Positions 42,093-57,155 of a stretch of 64,000 nt of DNA are shown in pieces. Source of the DNA: Lachnospiraceae bacterium. Lineage in GTDB: Bacteria > Bacillota > Clostridia > Lachnospirales > Lachnospiraceae. Each line of letters opens with the position of its first letter. Within the stretch, counting starts at the first letter, position 1. The position numbers were made by a program, and so were the translations under genes. The notes under the pieces were generated by a model. It did no database searches. It was not told the origin of the DNA and saw only the letters and a program-made list of their open reading frames with translations. The DNA is taken from positions 28,519 to 92,518 of the forward strand of contig JAGAMF010000006.1 of the NCBI GenBank assembly GCA_017624855.1, given 5' to 3'.

Positions 42093-43490
42093 ATGAAAAA
42101 AGGCGATATTTTACAAGGATATGTAACAAAATGTGATTTCCCCAATAAGGGAAGAGTACAGGTAAAAGAAGAGGACGGAACATTGTCTGAGGTAACGGTG
42201 AAGAATGCGTTGCCCGGCCAGACGGTATCCTGCATGATTAACAAGAAAAAGCACGGGAAAGTGGAAGGAAGACTTCTGGAAGTGGTGGTGCCTGCGGATT
42301 GTGAGATGGCAGCACCTTGTCCGCATGCGGGAATCTGCGGAGGGTGCCTCTATCAGACATATCCTTATGAAGAACAGTTAAAGATTAAGAAGAGCCAGGT
42401 GGAGGATTTGATTCGCCCGGTTTATGAAGCATTCAATATCGGCGATAAGGCTTTTACGGAAGTGTTTGAAGGGATTAAGGCAAGCCCCGTAAGTGAAGGA
42501 TATCGTAATAAAATGGAGTTCTCTTTCGGTGACGAATACAAAGACGGTCCTCTTTCTCTTGGTATGCATAAAAGAGGGAGCTTTTATGATATTGTGTCCG
42601 TAACGGACTGCCGTATTGTGGATGAGGATTATCGCCTTATTCTTGCTGCAACCAAGGAATATTTTACCAAGGAAGGATTACCCTTCTTCCATCGTTTGCG
42701 TCATGAGGGGTATCTGCGTCACCTCCTTGTGCGTAAAGCGGTAAAAACAGGAGAGATTTTAATTGGACTTATTACTACAAGTCAGATGCAGGTGGATTTA
42801 AAGCCTTATGTGGATGCCATTCTTGCATTGCCCTTACAGGGCAGCATTGCGGGCATTGTACATACCGTAAACGATTCCGTGGCGGATGTGGTAAAGAACG
42901 AGGGAACCACACTTTTATACGGCAAGGATTATTTCTATGAGGAGTTATTGGGTCTTCGTTTTAAAATCACTCAGTTCTCTTTCTTCCAGACTAACAGCTT
43001 AGGAGCGGAAGTGTTATACGATACCACAAGAAGCTATCTTGGTACCATGGAAAAAGAAAATCCTACCGTGTTTGATTTATACAGCGGAACCGGAACCATT
43101 GCCCAGCTCCTTGCCCCTGTGGCCGGTAAGGTGGTAGGCGTTGAAATCGTGGAAGAAGCAGTGGAAGCAGCAAAAGAAAACGCTGCCTTAAACGGCCTTA
43201 ACAATTGCGAATTCATTGCCGGCGATGTGTTAAAAGTACTGGATGATATTACGGAAAAACCGGACTACATTATTCTCGATCCGCCCAGAGACGGAATTCA
43301 TCCCAAGGCATTGCAAAAGATTATAGCTTACGGTGTAGACCGAATTGTGTATGTGTCTTGCAAGCCCACCAGTTTGGCGAGGGATTTGGAAGCATTGCTA
43401 CAAGGGGGATATAAGCTGGAGAGAATGTGTTGTGTGGACATGTTTCCCGGCACGGCAAATGTTGAGACGGTAGCATTGCTGAAGCGGTAG
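42093..43490 (+). CDS. rlmD: 23S rRNA (uracil-C5)-methyltransferase, RlmD/RumA family
   Basis: 465 residues from the ATG at 42093 (AGGAAGAG upstream). An N-terminal TRAM domain (GYVTKCDFPNKGRVQVKEED) precedes a four-Cys Fe-S-like motif, C70-x5-C76-x5-C82-x2-C85. The methyltransferase domain has FDLYSGTGTIAQLLAP (SAM), ILDPPRDGIHPKAL and the catalytic YVSCKPTSLARDL (Cys about 423). It methylates a uracil of 23S rRNA. The last codons (VETVALLKR) are also the left attachment repeat of an integrated element, so the gene's 3' end serves as an integration site but the reading frame is kept. Confidence 0.92.
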   Translation: MKKGDILQGYVTKCDFPNKGRVQVKEEDGTLSEVTVKNALPGQTVSCMINKKKHGKVEGRLLEVVVPADCEMAAPCPHAGICGGCLYQTYPYEEQLKIKKSQVEDLIRPVYEAFNIGDKAFTEVFEGIKASPVSEGYRNKMEFSFGDEYKDGPLSLGMHKRGSFYDIVSVTDCRIVDEDYRLILAATKEYFTKEGLPFFHRLRHEGYLRHLLVRKAVKTGEILIGLITTSQMQVDLKPYVDAILALPLQGSIAGIVHTVNDSVADVVKNEGTTLLYGKDYFYEELLGLRFKITQFSFFQTNSLGAEVLYDTTRSYLGTMEKENPTVFDLYSGTGTIAQLLAPVAGKVVGVEIVEEAVEAAKENAALNGLNNCEFIAGDVLKVLDDITEKPDYIILDPPRDGIHPKALQKIIAYGVDRIVYVSCKPTSLARDLEALLQGGYKLERMCCVDMFPGTANVETVALLKR

Positions 43491-43491
43491 G
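43461..43491 (+). repeat. Left attachment repeat (attL)
   Basis: Last 30 bases of rlmD plus one. Begins GTTGAGACGGTA and continues GCATTGCTGAAGCGG. It differs from the right copy at two positions (43472 and 43487). Confidence 0.75.
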
Positions 43492-43593
43492 GTTGTGATT
43501 GAATGAGAAGATTTGTTTGGTGTTAGATCGTAATATGGATGACATATTGGATAGTGTTGTGGATAAAAATAATGTGCGCAGGAGGAAAGCATC

Positions 43594-44247
43594 GTGGAAG
43601 AGAAAAAAGGAGTTATTTACATATTAACCAATCCGTCCTTTCCGGATTATGTAAAAATTGGATATGCGGATGATATAGAACGAAGACTGAATCAACTTAA
43701 TCGAAGCGAATGTATTCCTTTTGCATTTAGGGTTTATGCAATCTATGAGGTGAATTCAAGATTATCTGATTTGAAGATACATGCTATTATTGACAAACTG
43801 AATCCTAATTTACGTTCGATAGATAATTTTAATGGTCAGAAAAGAGTCAGAGAGTTTTATGCTATGTCTGCAGAGGATGCATATTCGATTTTAGAAGCTA
43901 TTGCGGAAATTCATGGATGTACCGATAAACTAATGTTGGTTAATCCAAATGAAGAGGAAATAAAAGCAGAGGAAGCGGCAGAAGAAGTGAAAAAGGAAAG
44001 TCGTACAAGGTCAGCCAACTTTACCTTCTCAGAGTGGGAGATACCGCTTGGTGCGGTGTTGGAATATTATACAGACAACACAATTACTTGCACGGTAGTA
44101 GATGATAGAAAAGTTGAATATAACGGCGAAATTATGAGTCTTACGGGTGTGGCGAAGATAATAACAGGTAAAATTTCAGGAATCGCGGGTCCAAGATATT
44201 TCAAATACAAAGGTGCATGGTTGTGGGATATAGAAGGTCGCAAATAA
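43594..44247 (+). CDS. GIY-YIG/T5orf172-type nuclease with RAMA-like C-terminus
   Basis: 217 residues, GTG start at 43594 behind AGGAGG. The N-terminal domain (about 8-95) is GIY-YIG-like: GVIYILTNPSFPDYVKIGYA with Tyr-Ile-Leu in place of the GIY core, then RRLNQLNRS and REFYAM. A Glu/Lys linker (about 120-140) leads to a domain (about 145-217) with WEIPLGAVLEYYTD and FKYKGAWLWDIE. That domain resembles the RAMA module linked to modified-DNA recognition. Catalytic residues were not confirmed. First gene inside the rlmD element; possible DNA-modification-sensing nuclease. Confidence 0.65.
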   Translation: MEEKKGVIYILTNPSFPDYVKIGYADDIERRLNQLNRSECIPFAFRVYAIYEVNSRLSDLKIHAIIDKLNPNLRSIDNFNGQKRVREFYAMSAEDAYSILEAIAEIHGCTDKLMLVNPNEEEIKAEEAAEEVKKESRTRSANFTFSEWEIPLGAVLEYYTDNTITCTVVDDRKVEYNGEIMSLTGVAKIITGKISGIAGPRYFKYKGAWLWDIEGRK

Positions 44248-44316
44248 TTTTTCAACCAAAAATTTCTGATAATAATAATTATGAATTCTTTTTTTAGGAA
44301 ATTTATTGTTGCAAAA

Positions 44317-44441
44317 AGGTGTGCCAAAAAGTGGAGCCATTTTTCAAAAAGTGACACACCTATATAAATATCAGGGGTTTTAGGGGATTTTGCCCCTGAC
44401 TAGATGCATTTTGGAATGGATATACAAAATGCGTATCTAGT
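44317..44441. other. Cluster of three inverted repeats
   Basis: Three successive hairpins in 125 noncoding bases. AGGTGTG (44317-44323) pairs with CACACCT (44355-44361), TCAGGGG (44371-44377) with CCCCTGA (44393-44399), and ACTAGAT...GCATTTTG (44399-44413) with CAAAATGC...ATCTAGT (44425-44441). It lies inside the mobile element. It could be a terminator complex, an origin of transfer or a recombination site; no class was recognised. Confidence 0.45.
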
Positions 44442-44542
44442 AAAAGATCCCTAGAGAAATGTAAATGATTTAGAGATTTTTTCTTACCGGAATCATTGCT
44501 TTTTCCAATTCATAGTTGTATCATTAAGGCAAGAAGTCATAG

Positions 44543-44788
44543 ATGACTTATCGGACGAAAAGATGCAGAAGCGATTATGGAAGGCGGGAAGCTTTGAACA
44601 AGGAATTTGAATGTTGCTACACATTCCTAGCCGAGATAATGGAGAAGTACGGAGCGCTGGTTTTGCGAGACATTGCCGTAGAGATTCAGTATGAACCAGA
44701 AACTTGGTGTGATGATGCAGAGGGAAAAAGACTTCGGTATGAGGCTTATGCGAGAAGATTTCTGAAACGGTTTGAGAAGGCAACATAA
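44543..44788 (+). CDS. Small hypothetical protein of the element
   Basis: 81 residues if it starts at the ATG at 44543, which lacks a strong ribosome site. A TTG at 44594, behind GGCGGGAAG, would give 64 residues. Contains ALVLRDIAVEIQYEPETWCD and is soluble. No family was recognised. It may be a remnant. Confidence 0.4.
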   Translation: MTYRTKRCRSDYGRREALNKEFECCYTFLAEIMEKYGALVLRDIAVEIQYEPETWCDDAEGKRLRYEAYARRFLKRFEKAT

Positions 44789-44878
44789 GGATTACCGGCA
44801 TCCTACGAGAGTGGGATGTATACATACGATAGAGCGTTCAAAATAATGCATATGGAATATAATTATTAAATTGGATTA

Positions 44879-44917
44879 AACCTCGGTGAAATTTTTTACC
44901 GGGGTTCTTTTTTTATG
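44879..44917 (+). terminator. Intrinsic terminator
   Basis: AACCTCGGT pairs with ACCGGGGTT (one G-U), followed by a long T run. Confidence 0.82.
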
Positions 44918-44928
44918 GGAATAGGTTA

Positions 44929-44957
44929 TTGACTGTAGGTAATAAAAGTCATATAAT
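44929..44957 (+). promoter_or_regulatory. Sigma-A promoter of the HTH-ORF6N genes
   Basis: TTGACT (44929-44934), 17 bases, TATAAT (44952-44957). Confidence 0.82.
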
Positions 44958-44987
44958 TTATTTATGCAATGCATAAAGGAGTGAACT

Positions 44988-45215
44988 ATGGAAGCAAGAG
45001 AAGAATTGAGAAAATTAAGAGAAAGTACCGGTATGAGTCGAAAAGAATTTTGTGAGTACTTTGAAATTCCGTATATGACGGAAACAGACTGGGAATTAGG
45101 GAATCGAAGAGTTCCACAGTATCTTTTACGGTTGATGGCCTATAAGATTGAAAAAGAGAAGTTGGCTGATAAAAGAAATAAGGATGGCAAGAAAGACGAA
45201 GTAACTAATTTATAA
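44988..45215 (+). CDS. Small XRE-like helix-turn-helix protein
   Basis: 75 residues. EELRKLRESTGMSRKEFCEY and FEIPYMTETDWELGNRRVPQ form an XRE-type helix-turn-helix (about 5-45), followed by helical YLLRLMAYKIEKEKL. Expected to be a DNA-binding regulator of the element. It has a strong promoter and an AAGGAG ribosome site. Probably cotranscribed with the ORF6N gene; a palindrome lies between them. Confidence 0.68.
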   Translation: MEAREELRKLRESTGMSRKEFCEYFEIPYMTETDWELGNRRVPQYLLRLMAYKIEKEKLADKRNKDGKKDEVTNL

Positions 45216-45226
45216 TGTATAGATAA

Positions 45227-45249
45227 TTGTGCAACAGCCTGTTGCACAA
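45227..45249. promoter_or_regulatory. Perfect palindrome before the ORF6N gene
   Basis: TTGTGCAACA-GCC-TGTTGCACAA: 10-bp arms with a 3-base centre, ending 23 bases before the start. Could be an operator for the HTH or ORF6N protein, or an RNA hairpin next to the ribosome site. Confidence 0.6.
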
Positions 45250-45272
45250 ACTGTGGAAGGATGAGTGTAAAG

Positions 45273-46262
45273 ATGACTGAAAGCGCAGATTTGATGACGC
45301 TTGACAATATATGTAATCGAGTTTATGTTATTCGAGGACAGCAGGTTATGCTTGATTGTGATTTGGCTGAGATTTATGGATATGAAGTGAAGCGTTTGAA
45401 TGAGCAGGTAAAGCGTAATATCACAAGATTCCCTGAAGATTTTATGTTTCAATTAACAACAGAGGAAGATGAGATCTTGAAGTCGCAAATTGCGACTTCA
45501 AGTTGGGGTGGAAAAAGAAAGCTTCCGTATGCATTTACGGAACAAGGCATTTATATGCTTGCTACAGTTCTCAGAGGTGAGCTTGCAGAGCAGCAAAGTA
45601 TATTCATTATGCGTGCATTTCGTGAGATGCGTCATTATATGAAACAGAATCAGCAGTTTGTTACACGGTCAGAGATGTATCTTGTAAGTGCGAGAGTGTC
45701 AGAAATTTCTGTGCAAATGTCAAATATGGCTGACAGACAGAAGAAAACAGAGCAAGATATGCAGGTTATTCAAAAGAGCATAGATACTCTAAATGAAAAC
45801 TTTGTTTCAGATAAGGATTTCAAAAATTTTGTTATCTATAAAGGACAGAAGTTCGAAGCAGATGCGGCGTACATAGATATATATCAACGGGCTAGGAAGA
45901 GTATTTATGTAGTGGATGATTATATGAATACAAAGACTTTACAGCTTTTGTCGCAGAAGCAAGTCGGTGTAGAAGTGGTTTTATTTACGGAAAATGGTCA
46001 TGGGAAAAGAGGTTTTTTGACAACGGCGGTAGTAAATGATTTTATACAAGAATATCCACCACTTAGAATTAAACCGAATGCAGATTGTCATGACAGATTG
46101 ATAGTTCTGGATTATGGTGAGCCTACAGAACAAGCATATCATTGCGGTGCTTCCAGCAAGGACGCAGGGAAGAAACTTTGCGCCATAAATGTGATATTAG
46201 AAACAAGAATGATTCATCCGGTAATAGATAAGTTGCTATTAGCTTCGGATAAAAAGATATAG
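45273..46262 (+). CDS. ORF6N-domain antirepressor-like protein with PLD-like C-terminus
   Basis: 329 residues. The N-terminal ORF6N domain (about 8-100) reads VYVIRGQQVMLDCDLAEIYG, VKRLNEQVKRNITRFPEDF and FTEQGIYMLATVLRG, as in phage antirepressors. A helical linker follows. The C-terminal domain (about 185-325) reads ARKSIYVVDDYMNTKTLQLL and CHDRLIVLDYG, then a Gly-Ala-Ser-Ser-Lys-Asp stretch, resembling the phospholipase D-like module often fused to ORF6N. The ATG at 45273 is preferred to 45261, which abuts GGAAGG; the choice is uncertain. Part of the rlmD element. Confidence 0.75.
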   Translation: MTESADLMTLDNICNRVYVIRGQQVMLDCDLAEIYGYEVKRLNEQVKRNITRFPEDFMFQLTTEEDEILKSQIATSSWGGKRKLPYAFTEQGIYMLATVLRGELAEQQSIFIMRAFREMRHYMKQNQQFVTRSEMYLVSARVSEISVQMSNMADRQKKTEQDMQVIQKSIDTLNENFVSDKDFKNFVIYKGQKFEADAAYIDIYQRARKSIYVVDDYMNTKTLQLLSQKQVGVEVVLFTENGHGKRGFLTTAVVNDFIQEYPPLRIKPNADCHDRLIVLDYGEPTEQAYHCGASSKDAGKKLCAINVILETRMIHPVIDKLLLASDKKI

Positions 46263-46305
46263 TCATTCTTGTGTGTAATGTCCGTAGAGAGGCAAGGGTA
46301 ATCAG

Positions 46306-46710
46306 ATGGATAACTTGCCTGTGTCGGACAAGCATTACGACAAGAAGTATGAGGATATGCAGGTGCGTCTGGATAAGCTTTATGATGAGGTAGAAGAAAT
46401 AGAAACTCTGATTGAAGAAGTGGAGACCAGACTGTATAATATTAGGCAGGAGAAAATATCCGGTGACAATGTGTACCAGTTTTTACTCTTCTTTGATAAG
46501 CTGTACGACAGATTTACGGATATTGAGAAGAAAACATTTATGAAGAGCTTCCTTGCGGATGTGAACATTTACGAGGAAGAACAGGCGGACGGAAGAATCC
46601 TTCGTAGTCTTAAGTTTAGATTTCCTGTGTTTTTCAATGGGAAAGAGATATACGAATTGGATTGGGACAACGAAAGTACCGTTGAGACGGTGGCATTGCT
46701 GAAGCGATAG
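46306..46710 (+). pseudogene. C-terminal fragment of a large serine recombinase
   Basis: 134 residues matching only the end of Lachnospiraceae-type large serine recombinases: SDKHYDKKYEDMQVRLDKLY, a coiled-coil helix (EVEEIETLIEEVETRLYNIR), ISGDNVYQFLLFFDKLYDRF, and a strand-rich end finishing VETVALLKR. The catalytic serine domain, recombinase domain and zinc ribbon are absent. No good ribosome site precedes the ATG, and an in-frame stop lies at 46285. Its last codons are the right attachment repeat, so it was the integrase of this element. Confidence 0.78.
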
Positions 46711-46711
46711 G
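46681..46711 (+). repeat. Right attachment repeat (attR)
   Basis: Begins GTTGAGACGGTG and continues GCATTGCTGAAGCGA; 29 of 31 bases identical to 43461-43491. It is the 3' end of the recombinase fragment. Confidence 0.75.
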
Positions 46712-46765: not shown

Positions 46766-48193
46766 ATGGTAATAACACCAGTAGAAGTATTTTTAGGAAT
46801 GGTTAGAGTGATTCGTTACAGAAGCGGTAACCGTAGCAATAAAATTAAAGTAAAACCGGCAGAAGTAATCTGTGCATCCTGTATGTTCTGCACAATCGAG
46901 CAGAGCAGATTGGAACGGTTTTTATTAACAGAGCAGGATTGGGTTCGATATAATTTACTGAAAAATACTATTCAAACAAGAATGTTAATGGATCTTGATT
47001 TAAAAGAATATGATGTCGAAGAAATCAGGAGAGCTCTTGAATATGATTTTGAATATTTTAATGATTTTACTCATGGATTGCTGACTTCTGATGATGAAAA
47101 AGGCTTGTGCACATTGGATGAGATGGAGGAGATTGCGAGGGAAGAGGCTATTTCGCAATATAATGTTATTTATCTGATCTTTTCTGTTTACAGTCGACTT
47201 TTAGCAAAGCAGGGTGCACGGGATCTTATAAGGCAGTGTTTGGATCTGACCGAAAAAAAGAAAACAGTGAATAAAAACGATGCGCTGAGTGATGCAAATG
47301 ATATTATGACCATGCGCAATGCGTTAAAAGAAAAGTTAAAAGACAAAGTCAAGGGACAGGATTTGGCCGTTGATAAATTTGTTGACGGTTTTATGCGTTA
47401 TAAAATACGAGGAAGTGTATCGGGAAAACCGGCAGCCGTTTATTTGTTTGCCGGACCTCCGGGAACCGGAAAAACATATATGGCAGAAACATTTGCAAAG
47501 TTGGTTGCAGATGAAGGTTATAAATATAAGCGTTTTGATATGTCTGCTTTTGGTGGGAACGGAAATGACAATATAACCGGTTTGGTTGGTTTTGAGAAAA
47601 CCTGGAAAGCATCACAGCCCGGTTTGCTTACGGAGTTTGTAAGAAAAAATCCCAAATGTATTTTGCTCTTTGATGAGATTGAAAAAGCAGGTGCCGCTGT
47701 CCGAATGCTGTTTTTAAGTGTGTTGGAAGGCGCTGTTCTTACAGACCGTTATTATGATAAGCAAGTATCTTTTGAAGATGCTATTCTTATTTTTACCACA
47801 AATGAAGGCAAGGACCTTTATGAAGACAATCGGTCCGTAAATCTTACCACATTGTCCGATGCGGCGGTAATAGAGGGACTTCGGGAGTCACAGTTTGCAC
47901 CGGAATTGATTTCTCGACTTATGTCGGGAAATGTTGTGATGTTTAATCATTTAAGCTATTCCAATATGTCGGAAATTTTTAAGGTATCTGTAAATAATAC
48001 GATGGCCGGACTTGGTCGTGACCGTTTTAAGTTTACCATGCGTCGACCGGAAGAATTACAGCAACTCTATTTTTTGAATAAAGGTGCGAATATCGATGCC
48101 AGATTTGTGTCCTCCAATACAAAGAAAATGGTAGAAGATTATTTTCTTCAGGCTATGGAGTATCTTGGAAAGCAAGAAGAGGAGGCGTTGTAG
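46766..48193 (+). CDS. ClpB-like AAA+ ATPase
   Basis: 475 residues. The N-terminal 185 residues are helical and match no family I know. The AAA+ module has Walker A GPPGTGKT (230-237), Walker B CILLFDEIEKA (298-308), sensor 1 IFTTNEG (about 342-348), the arginine-finger region FAPELISRL (377-385) and a sensor-2-like GANIDARF (440-447). Order and spacing fit the second ATPase domain of ClpA/B unfoldases. No ClpP-binding loop was identified. It ends in TAG at 48191-48193, and the same frame stays open into the FtsH-like gene. Likely one functional unit with it. Confidence 0.8.
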   Translation: MVITPVEVFLGMVRVIRYRSGNRSNKIKVKPAEVICASCMFCTIEQSRLERFLLTEQDWVRYNLLKNTIQTRMLMDLDLKEYDVEEIRRALEYDFEYFNDFTHGLLTSDDEKGLCTLDEMEEIAREEAISQYNVIYLIFSVYSRLLAKQGARDLIRQCLDLTEKKKTVNKNDALSDANDIMTMRNALKEKLKDKVKGQDLAVDKFVDGFMRYKIRGSVSGKPAAVYLFAGPPGTGKTYMAETFAKLVADEGYKYKRFDMSAFGGNGNDNITGLVGFEKTWKASQPGLLTEFVRKNPKCILLFDEIEKAGAAVRMLFLSVLEGAVLTDRYYDKQVSFEDAILIFTTNEGKDLYEDNRSVNLTTLSDAAVIEGLRESQFAPELISRLMSGNVVMFNHLSYSNMSEIFKVSVNNTMAGLGRDRFKFTMRRPEELQQLYFLNKGANIDARFVSSNTKKMVEDYFLQAMEYLGKQEEEAL

Positions 48194-48277
48194 GAATTAA
48201 AAGAAATCGTTGTTTCCGCAGAAATAAATGTTACTGTACGCGAATATTTTAAAAGAAAGCATAAACCTCGAATTCTT

Positions 48278-50917
48278 GTGTGCGGAAGAACAAATACGGA
48301 TGTATATGCGGATAGTGTTAAGAATTTATATATATCCAGTCCGAAAGATATAAAATCAAAGAAATTACAGCAAATTGCAGAGTGTGATTTCGCGGATTAT
48401 AACAGCTTTAAAGAATATCTTCAGGATTGTAATTGGAACAGTAACGACAGAAAAGATAAATATGATTTGGTGTTGATAGACCTTTGGGCAGATTCGAAGG
48501 GCGATAATGTTCGCCTTACCGAAACAGAAGGATATCAATGCCTTAAAACAGTGGAAGAAGAGAATCTTAATATTCCTGTTGTTGTTTTAGAGAAGGAAGT
48601 TGTACATTTGCATTACAACAAGACGAAGAAGACATGGGAAAAAGGAATTTCAAAGGATTTGTCTTTCAGAGATGAGGAGAAAAATATACTTAACAGCCAT
48701 GGTGTTACGGATTATATTTGCGGAGTATTTTATGATGTAGAAGAAAAATCCGGCAAATATAGTTTGCTGCTTGAAAAGAAGGCGTTGGATTCTGTTTTAG
48801 ACAGACAACATCGTATTGAAGCGGCAGTGAAACTGGCAAAAGCAGAGCAGAAGATTTCTGCGGATGTTACATATCATTATGAGAAAGAAAGCGGAAAATT
48901 GGAGATTATTTTCGATAATCTTTGTGTGGGAAACGCTACGGAAGAAAGTGCAGAATTGAGACAGCAGAGCAAGAAATATTTGCTTGCGGACAAACCTCAG
49001 GTTCGTGTAAAAGATGTTTTCGGTAATGCATTGGCAAAAGAAGCAGTAAAGCGTTGTATTGATAATATCAGACATCCGGAAAAATATAAGGCAGCAGGCG
49101 CTAAGTTAATGAAAGGTATCCTGATGTATGGTGATCCCGGAATGGGAAAGACCATGTTTGCCAAAGCTTTGGCATTCGAGTCGGGCGCATCTTTTATCTC
49201 TACTGTGGGTGCGGATTTTCTTCAGGATGGAGGTCTTGCCCGTTTGGAAGAAATGTTTAAAACAGCCAGACGCAAGAAACCTTGTATTTTATTTATCGAT
49301 GAATTTGATGCATTTACGGAAGTCAGAAGAGAAGGGATGAACCAGTATGTAAAGAGTCTGCTGGAAAAATTCCTGATGGAAATGGATGGTTTGGAGTCTG
49401 ATAATGAAGGTGTATATGTAGTGGGAGCAACCAACTGTATGCCGGATGAATTGGACAGTGCTGTAATGAGACGATTTAGCGCTAAAATACAGTTTAAATA
49501 TCCGAATATGAAAGAGCGGCAGGAATTCCTTCTTTACATTTTAAAGAAAAAAGGATTGGAAAATGTGCTTTCGGAGAGAGCTGCCAAAACTTTAAGTCTT
49601 ATGATGTACGAAAGAATGAGAAGCTATGCGGAAATGGAGAGCTTTATCGAAGAGTCCATAGCAGAGGCGGTTTATCGTGATAAGCCGGTTACTGCAAGAT
49701 TTTTATTCAACCGCGTTCATAATGAAACAAGTGGTGAAGCAAATCCGGAGGAAAACGGTGAGAGAATGTTAGAAACTGCTTTTCATGAAGCGGGACATGC
49801 GGTGTTACAGTGGTATTTTGGCAGAAAGAACGAATATGTTACCATCGTATCCAGAGGGGATTATGGCGGATATTCCATGGCAAAACCGAAGCTGTATAAT
49901 GGACAGGATTTCTTGAATCACATATGCATTTGCCTGGCAGGTCGTGTTGCTGAAACGCTTTATTTGGGTGAAGACAGTATGGAGAGCATCAATATTGGTG
50001 CGGGAAGTGATTTACAGAAGGCTACGCAGATTGCATATGAGTATGTTTGCCGATACGGTTTGGGCAGTCGCTTTCTTGTTGTGCCGGGTAAATTTGCTCC
50101 TTATGGTAATCGTTATCCGGAAACTGTATTGCCCGAACATGAAAAAGAACTGATATGGAACGATGTAAAACGGATTCTTGAGGAACAGAAAGAGCGGACC
50201 AAAGAACTTTTACAAGAGAATTTCTATGAAGTCGGAGCCTTGGCTATTTCTTTGGTTTATATGAAAGAGCTGGATGGAGAGACGGTAGAGAATATTATTC
50301 AAAATAAGGTCCCTTATTTGGAGGAAAGCTGCTTCATTAATGAAGATCAGGATTATGTAACTGTGGAGAATTCCGGCGAGAATAAATATTTATTCGGATA
50401 TCCCATTTATCCTCGTACAGAGGTTAAGATTTCCTTGGAAGACGATGAAACCGTAATGGTTGATAAGAAGCATTATTATACCGTAAAAACAGATACAGAA
50501 GTGATAGGCGTATATGAAGATATACAAACCGCTATGGCGCAGACATATGGTTGTATCAATGCCAGCTGCAGAAGGTTTGAAAGCAAAGAAAATGCGAAGA
50601 AGTATCTGGAAATGTCGGAATTAAAGGTTGTTTCTAACGGAGAAGAGAATTTCATTGGTTTCAAAGTCGATGCAATGGAAGAAATGATAGAGGGCAATGC
50701 GCAAGAAAAACGAGTGATAGATTTAACAGAGGATTTAAATTGTAAATTATTTGAAGATGCAGCGACTCATGGATTATCTCCGGCGGAATATCTGTTAGGT
50801 TATATAGTGAATGGAATGATGGAAGAATATGAAGATTTATATCTTGTAATTCGAATTTATGACAAGTCGCTTCAGCAGGAATTAATTCAATGTTTGGAAA
50901 CAGGGGAAGATTGGTAA
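48278..50917 (+). CDS. Soluble FtsH-like AAA+ protease (M41) with receiver-like N-terminus
   Basis: 879 residues from a GTG without a ribosome site. Domains: a divergent receiver-like fold (to about 150; YDLVLIDLW, GYQCLK, IPVVVLEKE, HGVTDYI); an FtsH-type AAA+ with GDPGMGKT (285-292), ILFIDEFDAF (337-346), VVGATN (381-386) and RRF (398-400); an M41 zinc protease with HEAGH (503-507) and third ligand Asp in GAGSDLQKATQIA (about 578); and a C-terminal region (about 730-780) resembling the RNase H1 N-terminal hybrid-binding module. It has no membrane segment, unlike FtsH. The 28 in-frame codons upstream (48194-48277) complete the first strand of the receiver, so the true N-terminus is uncertain. 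Confidence 0.82.
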   Translation: MCGRTNTDVYADSVKNLYISSPKDIKSKKLQQIAECDFADYNSFKEYLQDCNWNSNDRKDKYDLVLIDLWADSKGDNVRLTETEGYQCLKTVEEENLNIPVVVLEKEVVHLHYNKTKKTWEKGISKDLSFRDEEKNILNSHGVTDYICGVFYDVEEKSGKYSLLLEKKALDSVLDRQHRIEAAVKLAKAEQKISADVTYHYEKESGKLEIIFDNLCVGNATEESAELRQQSKKYLLADKPQVRVKDVFGNALAKEAVKRCIDNIRHPEKYKAAGAKLMKGILMYGDPGMGKTMFAKALAFESGASFISTVGADFLQDGGLARLEEMFKTARRKKPCILFIDEFDAFTEVRREGMNQYVKSLLEKFLMEMDGLESDNEGVYVVGATNCMPDELDSAVMRRFSAKIQFKYPNMKERQEFLLYILKKKGLENVLSERAAKTLSLMMYERMRSYAEMESFIEESIAEAVYRDKPVTARFLFNRVHNETSGEANPEENGERMLETAFHEAGHAVLQWYFGRKNEYVTIVSRGDYGGYSMAKPKLYNGQDFLNHICICLAGRVAETLYLGEDSMESINIGAGSDLQKATQIAYEYVCRYGLGSRFLVVPGKFAPYGNRYPETVLPEHEKELIWNDVKRILEEQKERTKELLQENFYEVGALAISLVYMKELDGETVENIIQNKVPYLEESCFINEDQDYVTVENSGENKYLFGYPIYPRTEVKISLEDDETVMVDKKHYYTVKTDTEVIGVYEDIQTAMAQTYGCINASCRRFESKENAKKYLEMSELKVVSNGEENFIGFKVDAMEEMIEGNAQEKRVIDLTEDLNCKLFEDAATHGLSPAEYLLGYIVNGMMEEYEDLYLVIRIYDKSLQQELIQCLETGEDW

Positions 50918-54527: not shown

Positions 54528-57155
54528 ATGAAAAGAAAAACTGTATGCAGAATGCTTACCATGATGTTGGCACTTAGTATGGTGGTTGCACCCATGAGCG
54601 GTTGCAGAGGATTGTTTCCGCAGAATCAGAATACCAATGGGCCGGTTGTGGGAAGTGATGCAGGTCAAACTTCCGAAAGTGATATTACCGATGATGAAGT
54701 AATGGCAGGTGCAACAGATTTAATGAGTCATATTAAAAATGATTTTGCAGCATCTGAGTTGCCTGAGGATTATAATCAGCCTATGTATAATCTTCCCATT
54801 GACCATGTGTTTGAGTTTGAATGCTGCGAAGAAATTGGTAACTATCCCAATGAGGCTTTTACGGTGGTAGATAATACTGATTTTGTGAATAAAGGCGGTA
54901 TGACTTTTAACTGGAATACTTATGAAGACGGTAAAATCACCGTAGAGCCCAGAGGTGCCCTGTATCTGGACAAGAACGGTTCAAGTAATATTAACGATGG
55001 AACATGGGGATCGTTAAATGTATTGTATTTGGTTCAGAAGGTTGATTTGACTACCGGTGAAACCTTGGAAAAACCTATTATTACACCGTTTACCGTACAG
55101 CAGCCTTTACAGGCTCCCATTATCAGTCAGGGCGTAGACGAAAACAATAACTATACCATTTCATGGGAAGCGGTTCCCGGTGCAGTGGAGTATCGTGTAT
55201 ATGAACACTTTTTAGATTACGGATACAAGGTAGAATGCGTAACAACCGAAACTTCCGTATCGGTATCTGAGTTTGAAACTCAGAAGACAATGGAAGAGTA
55301 TGAAGAGCTGATTGCACAGGAATATATTGACGCAGGTTATGACAGCGGTATTGTCGGCAGAGACGGTGTGTCCAACATGAACTATGGTGTAAAATACGAC
55401 GATGAAATGGAAAGCGGATATTTCCTTGTAGTTGCGGTTGGAGAAGACGGAGTGCAGTCAGGTGCCAGCAATTGCGTGGATGTACGTGATATTGCCATGA
55501 AGTTGCCTCACGAGGTTCAGGACACTACATTTGAGGTTGATATTACTTCTATTGAAGATGTTCCCGCCTATGTAGATGTTGTAATGGTTGACGGTTCCGT
55601 TCAGCAGATGATTATTGATTACAAGGGAGCACCGGTTTATAGTTTCCCCGATAATGAGAATAAAATTGCACTTAAGTGTAAGGTTTTAAATACACAGTTT
55701 GATAGCTTCTTTGTTATATTAAGCGGTATGCATTATGAGGATGTGTTGGCTCAGAGTGAGTTTGTTAAGAGCAGACAAGATGAGTTGGCAAGTAAAGTAG
55801 GAAGTGCACAGGAACCGGAAATTAATGTGACTCATTCACCTTCGGAAGATTTAACAGAAGCAATCGAGGAATTCCGCGAGGATATGCCCGGATCAGAGCC
55901 TTCAGAAGAACCCAGCGAAGAGCCTTCAGAAGAACCCAGCGAGGAACCTTCGGAAGAGCCCAGCGAAGAGCCTTCAGAAGAACCCAGCGAGGAACCTTCG
56001 GAAGAGCCCAGCGAGGAACCCTCGGAAGAACCCAGTGAGGAGCCTTCGGAAGAACCCAGTGAGGAGCCTTCAGAAGAACCTGAAGTGCCTTCTGTACCGG
56101 AAGGAAATGCAAGCCTTCCCATGCAGTTAATGAATGATACGGTAGCTTATGTAGAGCAGACTATGAATGCATTGGGTGGCGACAGAGTAAACGGCGTTCT
56201 TTATGCATCCAATGATTTACAGGCATGGCTTGCAATGTGTATGATTGCACAGAGCGAAGTAATCCCGGTGCCTTATGAGATGTTTCCGGATGCAGTAAAC
56301 TTAGACTATACAACCGGTTTACTTATGGAAGCATTTCGCCAGAATCCTACCGCAGGAATGATTAAAGAATTACGATATTCAGGTGAATATCAGGCATATG
56401 TGGTAGAATATCTGGAAACACCCGAAGTAAGACTGGATAAAGCACAGCAGGAATTGGACGCTGCATATGAAATTGAAAGTCGTATCATTGATGACGGAAT
56501 GTCAGATTATGAAAAAGTATTGGCAATCAATGAGTATTTCAGAATCAATGCTTCTTATGATTTTGATTCTACAGCAACTGAGATTTCAGATATGTCCACA
56601 TTGTCAGAACAGTTTATAGATGCACACACTCCTTATGGCATTATTTGCAATAATTATGGTGTATGTGAAAGCTATTCCGAGTCCTTCGTTTTAGTGGCAA
56701 GAATTGCCGGCTTGGATGCAATGTGTGAATTTGGTACATTATACGGCGGCGGACATGAATGGAACCGTGTAAAAGTAGACGACAGCTGGTGTGTGTTGGA
56801 TGTTACCAATAATGACATTGATACATTTGTTAACGGCTTGATGAACATAACCGATGAACAGGCATCCGGAATTTTGGTTCCCGACCATTCGGCAATTTTA
56901 AATGACTACAATTACGCAGCAACAGATGAAACAAAAGAATATTACTACATGTCAGGTTGTGTGGTAAATGATTTGTCTGAGGCGGCAGATATGATTGCAG
57001 ACATCTTAGAAGATGAAGATATCGCATTGATTCGTATTCCCGCAGGTTGCACCGAGGCTGAATTGGAAGCGGTAATCGAAGAATTGGTATATGAAAAAGG
57101 CGTTAATTTCTCTACTGCAGGTGTGCATATGAATATTCTTTGCGTAGAGCAGTAA
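54528..57155 (+). CDS. Transglutaminase-like surface lipoprotein with PSEE repeats
   Basis: 875 residues. A lipoprotein signal peptide (KRKTVCRMLTMMLALSMVV, lipobox ending MSGC at about residue 26) anchors it outside the membrane. A fibronectin-like segment (about 195-240, YTISWEAVPGAVEYRVYEH) follows. Then come 15 tandem PSEE repeats (about 458-517), a helical part, and a transglutaminase-like domain whose triad reads Cys713 (YGVCESYSES), His743 (GGHEWNRV) and Asp758 (VLDVTNND). Such domains act as cysteine peptidases or cross-linkers. The ECF promoter places it under the adjacent sigma factor. Confidence 0.85.
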   Translation: MKRKTVCRMLTMMLALSMVVAPMSGCRGLFPQNQNTNGPVVGSDAGQTSESDITDDEVMAGATDLMSHIKNDFAASELPEDYNQPMYNLPIDHVFEFECCEEIGNYPNEAFTVVDNTDFVNKGGMTFNWNTYEDGKITVEPRGALYLDKNGSSNINDGTWGSLNVLYLVQKVDLTTGETLEKPIITPFTVQQPLQAPIISQGVDENNNYTISWEAVPGAVEYRVYEHFLDYGYKVECVTTETSVSVSEFETQKTMEEYEELIAQEYIDAGYDSGIVGRDGVSNMNYGVKYDDEMESGYFLVVAVGEDGVQSGASNCVDVRDIAMKLPHEVQDTTFEVDITSIEDVPAYVDVVMVDGSVQQMIIDYKGAPVYSFPDNENKIALKCKVLNTQFDSFFVILSGMHYEDVLAQSEFVKSRQDELASKVGSAQEPEINVTHSPSEDLTEAIEEFREDMPGSEPSEEPSEEPSEEPSEEPSEEPSEEPSEEPSEEPSEEPSEEPSEEPSEEPSEEPSEEPSEEPEVPSVPEGNASLPMQLMNDTVAYVEQTMNALGGDRVNGVLYASNDLQAWLAMCMIAQSEVIPVPYEMFPDAVNLDYTTGLLMEAFRQNPTAGMIKELRYSGEYQAYVVEYLETPEVRLDKAQQELDAAYEIESRIIDDGMSDYEKVLAINEYFRINASYDFDSTATEISDMSTLSEQFIDAHTPYGIICNNYGVCESYSESFVLVARIAGLDAMCEFGTLYGGGHEWNRVKVDDSWCVLDVTNNDIDTFVNGLMNITDEQASGILVPDHSAILNDYNYAATDETKEYYYMSGCVVNDLSEAADMIADILEDEDIALIRIPAGCTEAELEAVIEELVYEKGVNFSTAGVHMNILCVEQ
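55899..56078 (+). repeat. 15 tandem 12-base repeats encoding PSEE
   Basis: Each unit is CC(T/C)-Ser-GA(A/G)-GA(A/G), with TCA/TCG and AGC/AGT serine codons alternating, so the DNA has an underlying 24-base period. It forms an acidic, proline-spaced stalk in the lipoprotein. Confidence 0.95.

Follow-up and report, generated by a model that had tools for sequence, protein, structure and literature searches.

Organization of the locus

A gene that appears to encode a two-ring AAA+ protease, interrupted once by an in-frame TAG codon, was analysed in a stretch of 64,000 nucleotides from Lachnospiraceae bacterium (assembly GCA_017624855.1, contig JAGAMF010000006.1, positions 28,519 to 92,518 of the forward strand), referred to below as the window. 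An earlier interpretation, made from the letters of the window without database searches (the sequence-only reading), had described a ClpB-like ATPase and an FtsH/M41-like protease in two frames that are in phase and divided only by this TAG. Reading of the frames bears this out: the upstream frame ends at the TAG and the same frame is then open from 48194 to 50917, that is, for 907 codons. The two halves are similar in GC content and third-position GC content (0.385/0.344 and 0.387/0.357, respectively). The features of the locus are collected in Table 1.

Table 1. Coordinates of the features discussed, numbered from the first nucleotide of the window
Feature	Position	Strand	Evidence or remarks
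31-bp repeat, left copy	43461..43491	+	3′ end of tRNA_U5-meth_tr methyltransferase gene
31-bp repeat, right copy	46681..46711	+	3′ end of 134-aa frame
Full fused gene, one in-frame TAG inside	46766..50917	+	Frame reading, Pfam, family profile
Upstream open frame, 475 aa	46766..48193	+	ATG start at 46766, TAG end
Clp-type AAA+ module	47429..47920	+	Pfam AAA_2, E 2e-29; Walker A GPPGTGKT, Walker B LLFDEIEK
AGGAGG, Shine-Dalgarno-like	48180..48185	+	Within Glu codons
In-frame TAG	48191..48193	+	Variable linker ahead of last Clp lid strand
KEIVVSAEI, putative final Clp lid strand	48200..48226	+	Encoded past TAG; aligned with same strand in homologues
Receiver-like domain, probably pseudo-receiver	48263..48763	+	Borders approximate; Asp ending strand 3, G-[AV] motif; weak profile match only
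FtsH-type AAA+ module	49118..49498	+	Pfam AAA, E 3e-30; Walker A GDPGMGKT, Walker B LFIDEFDA
M41 zinc protease	49772..50296	+	Pfam Peptidase_M41, E 7e-27; HEAGH at 49784-49798; GAGSD holds Asp
RNase H1 N-terminal domain, weak	50474..50605	+	Cauli_VI, E 0.0014, below cut-off; in C-terminal extension

One gene rather than two

Relatives were searched with a profile covering the junction and the linker. Matches were found in 5/31 genomes of the genus, 7/397 of the family sample, 6/392 of the order, 4/391 of the class and 3/398 of the phylum, counts that are not additive since the samples overlap and each includes the genome of the window itself. We kept 18 homologues, all from the same phylum, among them a paralogue encoded in the same genome (L042, at G000:C12). 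Four other matches were dropped: two that run to a contig end (G358, L067; G929, L100), a 98-aa frame (G067:C4) and a weak 25-bit match inside a 621-aa frame (G588, L099). All 18 homologues are single frames which span both AAA+ modules, share the same domain order and contain no stop, either within the match, where the window has its one TAG, or elsewhere in the frame; this count includes L097, retained although a contig end cuts it after the FtsH module, so that its M41 part is not visible. The sequence-only reading had proposed asking whether homologues are fused or separately started, and the answer is uniform: every one is fused and a split version was found in none of the 18. The idea that the UAG might belong to a designed layout found no support in the comparison, as none of the 18 carries it and genes of this family are as a rule uninterrupted.

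A profile built from these homologues, with the window excluded, aligns with the read-through product in a single stretch (aa 163-1180, 731.5 bits), and the alignment crosses the TAG into EIVVSAEI. The residues KEIVVSAEI, which by comparison with ClpB-type lids we take to be the last strand of the Clp lid, occupy the site of strands such as KVLVRLNV or KIHLDIDF in the homologues; the UAG would thus cut within a domain. The codons that follow the TAG had been assigned to the receiver-like domain, which is correct only in part: those just past the stop belong to the Clp lid, and the first receiver-like strand, ILVC, comes after them. Because the homologues are fused, the profile spans the TAG and the UAG falls within the Clp lid, the locus is, as judged by sequence comparison, a single fused gene that carries the UAG in frame, and not two genes.

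Domain architecture of the read-through product

The predicted order of the fused product is Clp-type AAA+ module, receiver-like domain, FtsH-type AAA+ module, M41 protease and C-terminal extension, and the combination of Clp-like with FtsH/M41-like parts recognized by the sequence-only reading is confirmed by the Pfam matches of Table 1. The label ‘ClpB-like’ proved only roughly right: the first module is indeed of Clp type, but the solved structures nearest to that of the family are ClpE and ClpC, followed by Hsp104, ClpA and ClpB. The window copy has kept the Walker A and B motifs of both rings, the HEXXH motif and the position of the third zinc ligand, which is presumably the Asp of GAGSD. 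The N-terminal part of the window product gave no match to Clp_N; among four relatives scanned, two gave matches with E values of 0.11 and 0.16.

The central domain is less clear-cut. Pfam returned no receiver match in the read-through product up to E 0.1, and the best profile match was to a de novo protein (E 0.0012), the best natural one being a nitrogen assimilation regulatory protein (E 0.02). The Asp that ends strand 3 is present in 14 of the 19 fused proteins (the 18 homologues and the window product) and the G-[AV] motif in all 19. The product is probably soluble, as had been supposed from the apparent lack of a membrane anchor: it contains no 19-residue hydropathy window of membrane strength (>=1.6), as compared with 13-32 such windows in five canonical FtsHs. 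Three of the 18 homologues (L068, L095 and L096) have one or two marginal windows each, up to 1.72.

Two relatives carry at their start the domain weakly detected in the C-terminal extension of the window product. L064 (6127-10965) is a 1,613-aa member with two FtsH-type AAA+ modules in tandem; it opens with a match to the RNase H1 N-terminal domain (Cauli_VI), and L063 likewise begins with this domain.

A family apart from canonical FtsH

In a tree of the FtsH/M41 parts, the 19 fused proteins are divided from 19 canonical-type FtsHs by a branch with support of 100/99, and this separation was recovered in 100% of 200 bootstrap trees. The order within the family is unsure, owing to four long-branched rows, that of the window among them. 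Both modules have Walker A and B motifs in 18 of the 19 fused proteins, and HEXXH occurs in all 18 rows that extend to it. The departing member, L098 (7576-10458), retains HEAGH while three of its four Walker motifs are degenerate; it is perhaps a regulatory form.

The genome of the window also encodes, at L043 (4321-8421, G000:C5), an M41 protein (about 1,364 aa) whose FtsH-type module is preceded by a further AAA+ module; it was entered for the tree and removed by the score and length filter. A scan of genome contigs yielded a single locus, a canonical-type FtsH, and viral contigs searched with one peptide pattern and one DNA pattern gave no match. At the protein level, none of 1096 plasmid and none of 64 phage records covered 80% of the query; the best 20 of each were partial, FtsH-like matches, and the best plasmid match (from S. 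oralis, 55% of the query) was taken for a canonical FtsH. A DNA search of plasmids found no match.

Nature of the in-frame UAG

We propose, with a probability of roughly 0.72, that the locus belongs to a rare family of metalloproteases, soluble and built as one chain with two AAA+ rings, and that the copy in the window is disabled by the UAG, be it through a nonsense change, a variant or an error. Most likely, the gene was disabled by a recent nonsense change, or else the stop is a strain variant or a consensus error of the draft assembly; a nonsense mutation in a fused gene and a sequence error were both among the options that the sequence-only reading had listed. TAG terminates 12 of the 42 open stretches of more than 200 codons in the six frames of the window and is therefore an ordinary stop here. 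Among positions conserved in the other 18 proteins, the window product keeps 32/35 before the TAG and 56/63 after it, close to the 33/35 and 60/69 of L042 and the 33/37 and 60/69 of L068, two divergent members that are intact, whereas L098, which has no stop, keeps fewer (23/41 and 49/71). Conserved positions are thus kept equally past the stop, which gives no sign of decay and implies that the stop is recent, an error, or tolerated.

Several observations weigh against this proposal. The AGGAGG beside the stop, just ahead of the TAG as first reported, is the only one in the gene and has to be put down to coincidence. Continuity across the TAG adds little to the profile score (739.3 bits for the whole versus 316.4 and 409.8 for the halves), so that the weight of the argument is carried by the fused homologues. 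The end branch of the window row is long (2.28) and could mean relaxed constraint, although that of L098 is longer still. The equal preservation past the stop would also be expected from functional read-through, and a single-sequence structure model of the Clp-receiver part was uninformative (pLDDT 36.5). Function, hexamer and stacking of the rings are all predictions, and mutation, variant and error are not separable from this assembly alone.

Within the proposal, a base-call error or minority assembly variant, with the real gene whole, is a tentative option that we consider possible, though with the odds against it. The rest of the gene looks intact, with one stop and no frame shift, as such an artefact would leave it, but no other same-frame break of this kind was seen in the 64 kb, and substitution errors in a consensus are uncommon.

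Functional read-through of the UAG, by which most ribosomes would stop and release a Clp fragment while a minority would yield the full protease at a low or regulated dose, appears unlikely. It would account for the 907 open codons past the stop, the conserved residues kept there and the family profile match that crosses it, but no homologue shares the stop, and the RNA at 48191-48290 folds no better than its shuffles (z 0.02, for one sequence and with pseudoknots not considered). A pattern search of the window's own genome for tRNAs with a CTA anticodon gave 14 matches as compared with 28 for a reversed-pattern control; three of the 14 were examined and turned out to be a tRNA-Arg(TCT), the tRNA-Leu(AAG) of the window and one place without a tRNA, so that this limited search found no suppressor tRNA. 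PylS likewise had no match above the cut-off in this genome. As the assembly is 74.5% complete, these absences are weak evidence. Still more doubtful is the idea that the UAG is used as a translational switch, with the Clp-only chain as the default and the full protease made by read-through; were this true, a single locus would supply both an unfoldase and a protease, their ratio being fixed or regulated.

It is improbable that the gene is truly split into two cooperating polypeptides, with translation of the second beginning at a non-standard codon or through reinitiation close to the UAG. The AGGAGG, unique within the gene, could serve such a start, but the only in-frame start codon close to it is a TTG at 48188, directly followed by the TAG. 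As the sequence-only reading had noted, the 28 codons past the stop contain no in-frame ATG, GTG or TTG. The first such codon, the GTG at 48278, is 93 bases past the AGGAGG, has no Shine-Dalgarno-like site in the preceding 20 bases, and would cut the fold by removing the first strand of the receiver-like domain; an in-frame ATC at 48206 lies 20 bases past the AGGAGG. At the codon frequencies of this gene, 28 startless codons have a chance probability of about 0.11, and the startless stretch alone is accordingly weak evidence. Stops flanked on both sides by more than 150 open codons of the same frame occur three times in the window, and only the one at 48191 lacks a close start; at the other two, a start codon is the ninth codon past the stop. 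A true split is further opposed by the location of the UAG within a domain and by the absence of any split gene among the 18 homologues. Finally, two ordinary unrelated genes, adjacent and in phase by chance, can be dismissed: adjacency on the same strand is common, but a domain order shared by 18 fused homologues, together with the lid strand past the stop, makes such a coincidence barely credible.

Integration site and genomic neighbourhoods

The integration site that had been noticed beside the gene is real in the sense that a 31-bp repeat, its two copies 93.5% identical, ends 54 bp before the gene; the left copy is likely attL and the right copy attR. The methyltransferase gene at the left copy is presumably of the rlmD type. 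The 134-aa frame at the right copy has no Pfam match but is similar to phage proteins with an integrase or site-specific recombinase annotation, two of them from Streptococcus suis phages with names ending in ‘rum’; we assume that it is a serine recombinase. The interval 43461-46711 has the appearance of an integrated-element remnant, inserted where the rlmD-type gene ends and holding T5orf172, ORF6N and the recombinase-like 134-aa frame, which overlaps the repeat. Since the fused gene starts 54 bp past the right repeat, it is a neighbour of this 3.2-kb remnant and no part of it. Elsewhere in the window, a protein encoded at 54528-57155 has a long run of four-residue repeats of the Ser-Glu-Glu-Pro type in its middle.

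A survey for defence or mobile genes around the family had also been suggested. Neighbourhoods were read at 18 loci, some of them short, without a control set, and provide leads rather than statistics. Genes of the YbjN family or their kin adjoin L041, L062, L065 and L093; at L065 the link consists of two genes tied by BLAST to that of L093, one of which was scanned without a Pfam match, and that of L093 itself is just under the cut-off. Genes for a Ser/Thr kinase and a PP2C phosphatase lie near L042, L095 and L096 (the last through BLAST likeness to L095), TIR genes near L041 and L093, and genes for a conjugative coupling protein and an Mrr-type nuclease near L094. Such neighbours are thus found near some relatives, but none of these types occurs among the six scanned neighbours in the window, for which Pfam gave the tRNA_U5-meth_tr methyltransferase, T5orf172, ORF6N, GNAT, HD and, in one case, no match. 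The Ser/Thr kinase/PP2C, TIR or YbjN neighbours hint at signal-controlled proteolysis.

Two of these neighbourhoods deserve separate mention. The uninterrupted paralogue L042 directly precedes a Ser/Thr kinase, a PP2C phosphatase and a PRTase_2/TRSP protein, an arrangement reminiscent of tellurite-type stress operons. Near the L093 member, a 1,063-aa protein (L093, 11709-14897) combines a TIR domain with WD40-like repeats.

Proposed mode of action

The well-known bacterial AAA+ proteases use one kind of motor. FtsH and Lon carry it on the protease polypeptide itself, whereas in Clp it docks to the protease. An intact chain of the present family may assemble as a stacked hexamer. Its Clp ring would engage and pull substrates, the receiver-like piece would couple or gate the two rings, and the FtsH ring would feed the M41 chamber. 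One chain would then do what ClpCP does with two proteins. In the window copy, the UAG would truncate the Clp lid ahead of its last strand; the product would be a Clp fragment of 475 aa, with protease made in small amounts at most. Clp-type and FtsH-type motors placed in series in one soluble M41 chain would offer a compact test of cooperation between unlike rings, and control is suggested by the receiver-like piece that separates them. In our opinion the family itself, distinct from canonical FtsH and made up of soluble metalloproteases with two AAA+ rings, is more interesting than the UAG, which matters only if read-through is shown.

Comparison with known systems

The sequence-only reading knew of no described system with this layout, and we likewise found no description of a Clp-receiver-FtsH-M41 architecture in the literature searched, whose coverage excludes most subscription journals. 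FtsH/HflB (NCBIfam TIGR01241) shares with the window product an FtsH-type AAA+ module followed by M41, with HEXXH and a third, Asp ligand, but the product scores 240.8 bits against a curated cut-off of 600, carries an additional Clp ring and the receiver-like domain, lacks a membrane-strength segment and falls on the other side of the tree. The second AAA+ module of the Hsp100 proteins ClpC, ClpE and ClpA resembles the first module and lid of the family, whose profile has ClpE as its best solved match (E 7e-55). Unlike these Clps, the family has one Clp-type ring and a protease of another family in cis. The tripeptide [LIVMY]-G-[FL], which we take to be the ClpP-docking motif, was seen by eye in the aligned segment of none of the 19 fused proteins, as would fit a protease carried in cis.

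An extra AAA+ module ahead of an FtsH-type module also occurs in the FtsH ternary conflict systems. As described by Kaur et al. 2020 (PMC7159879), these combine an inactive FtsH-type N-terminal module with an FtsH-type module and are defined by their MoxR and vWA partners. On that description they differ from the window product, whose N-terminal module is predicted to be of Clp type and looks active; the six neighbours scanned in the window include no MoxR or vWA gene.

Among anti-phage proteins, PADLOC gave only partial AAA+ matches for the window protein (IetA, TRIP13, PDC-M37B, DolB and others). The IteA anti-phage model of NCBIfam is matched with 86.5 bits against a cut-off of 510, and FtsH_fam scores higher (240.8). 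The likeness to IetA of the IetAS system (99.1 bits) lies in the FtsH-like AAA+ module, but the window product differs in carrying both M41 and a Clp module in cis.

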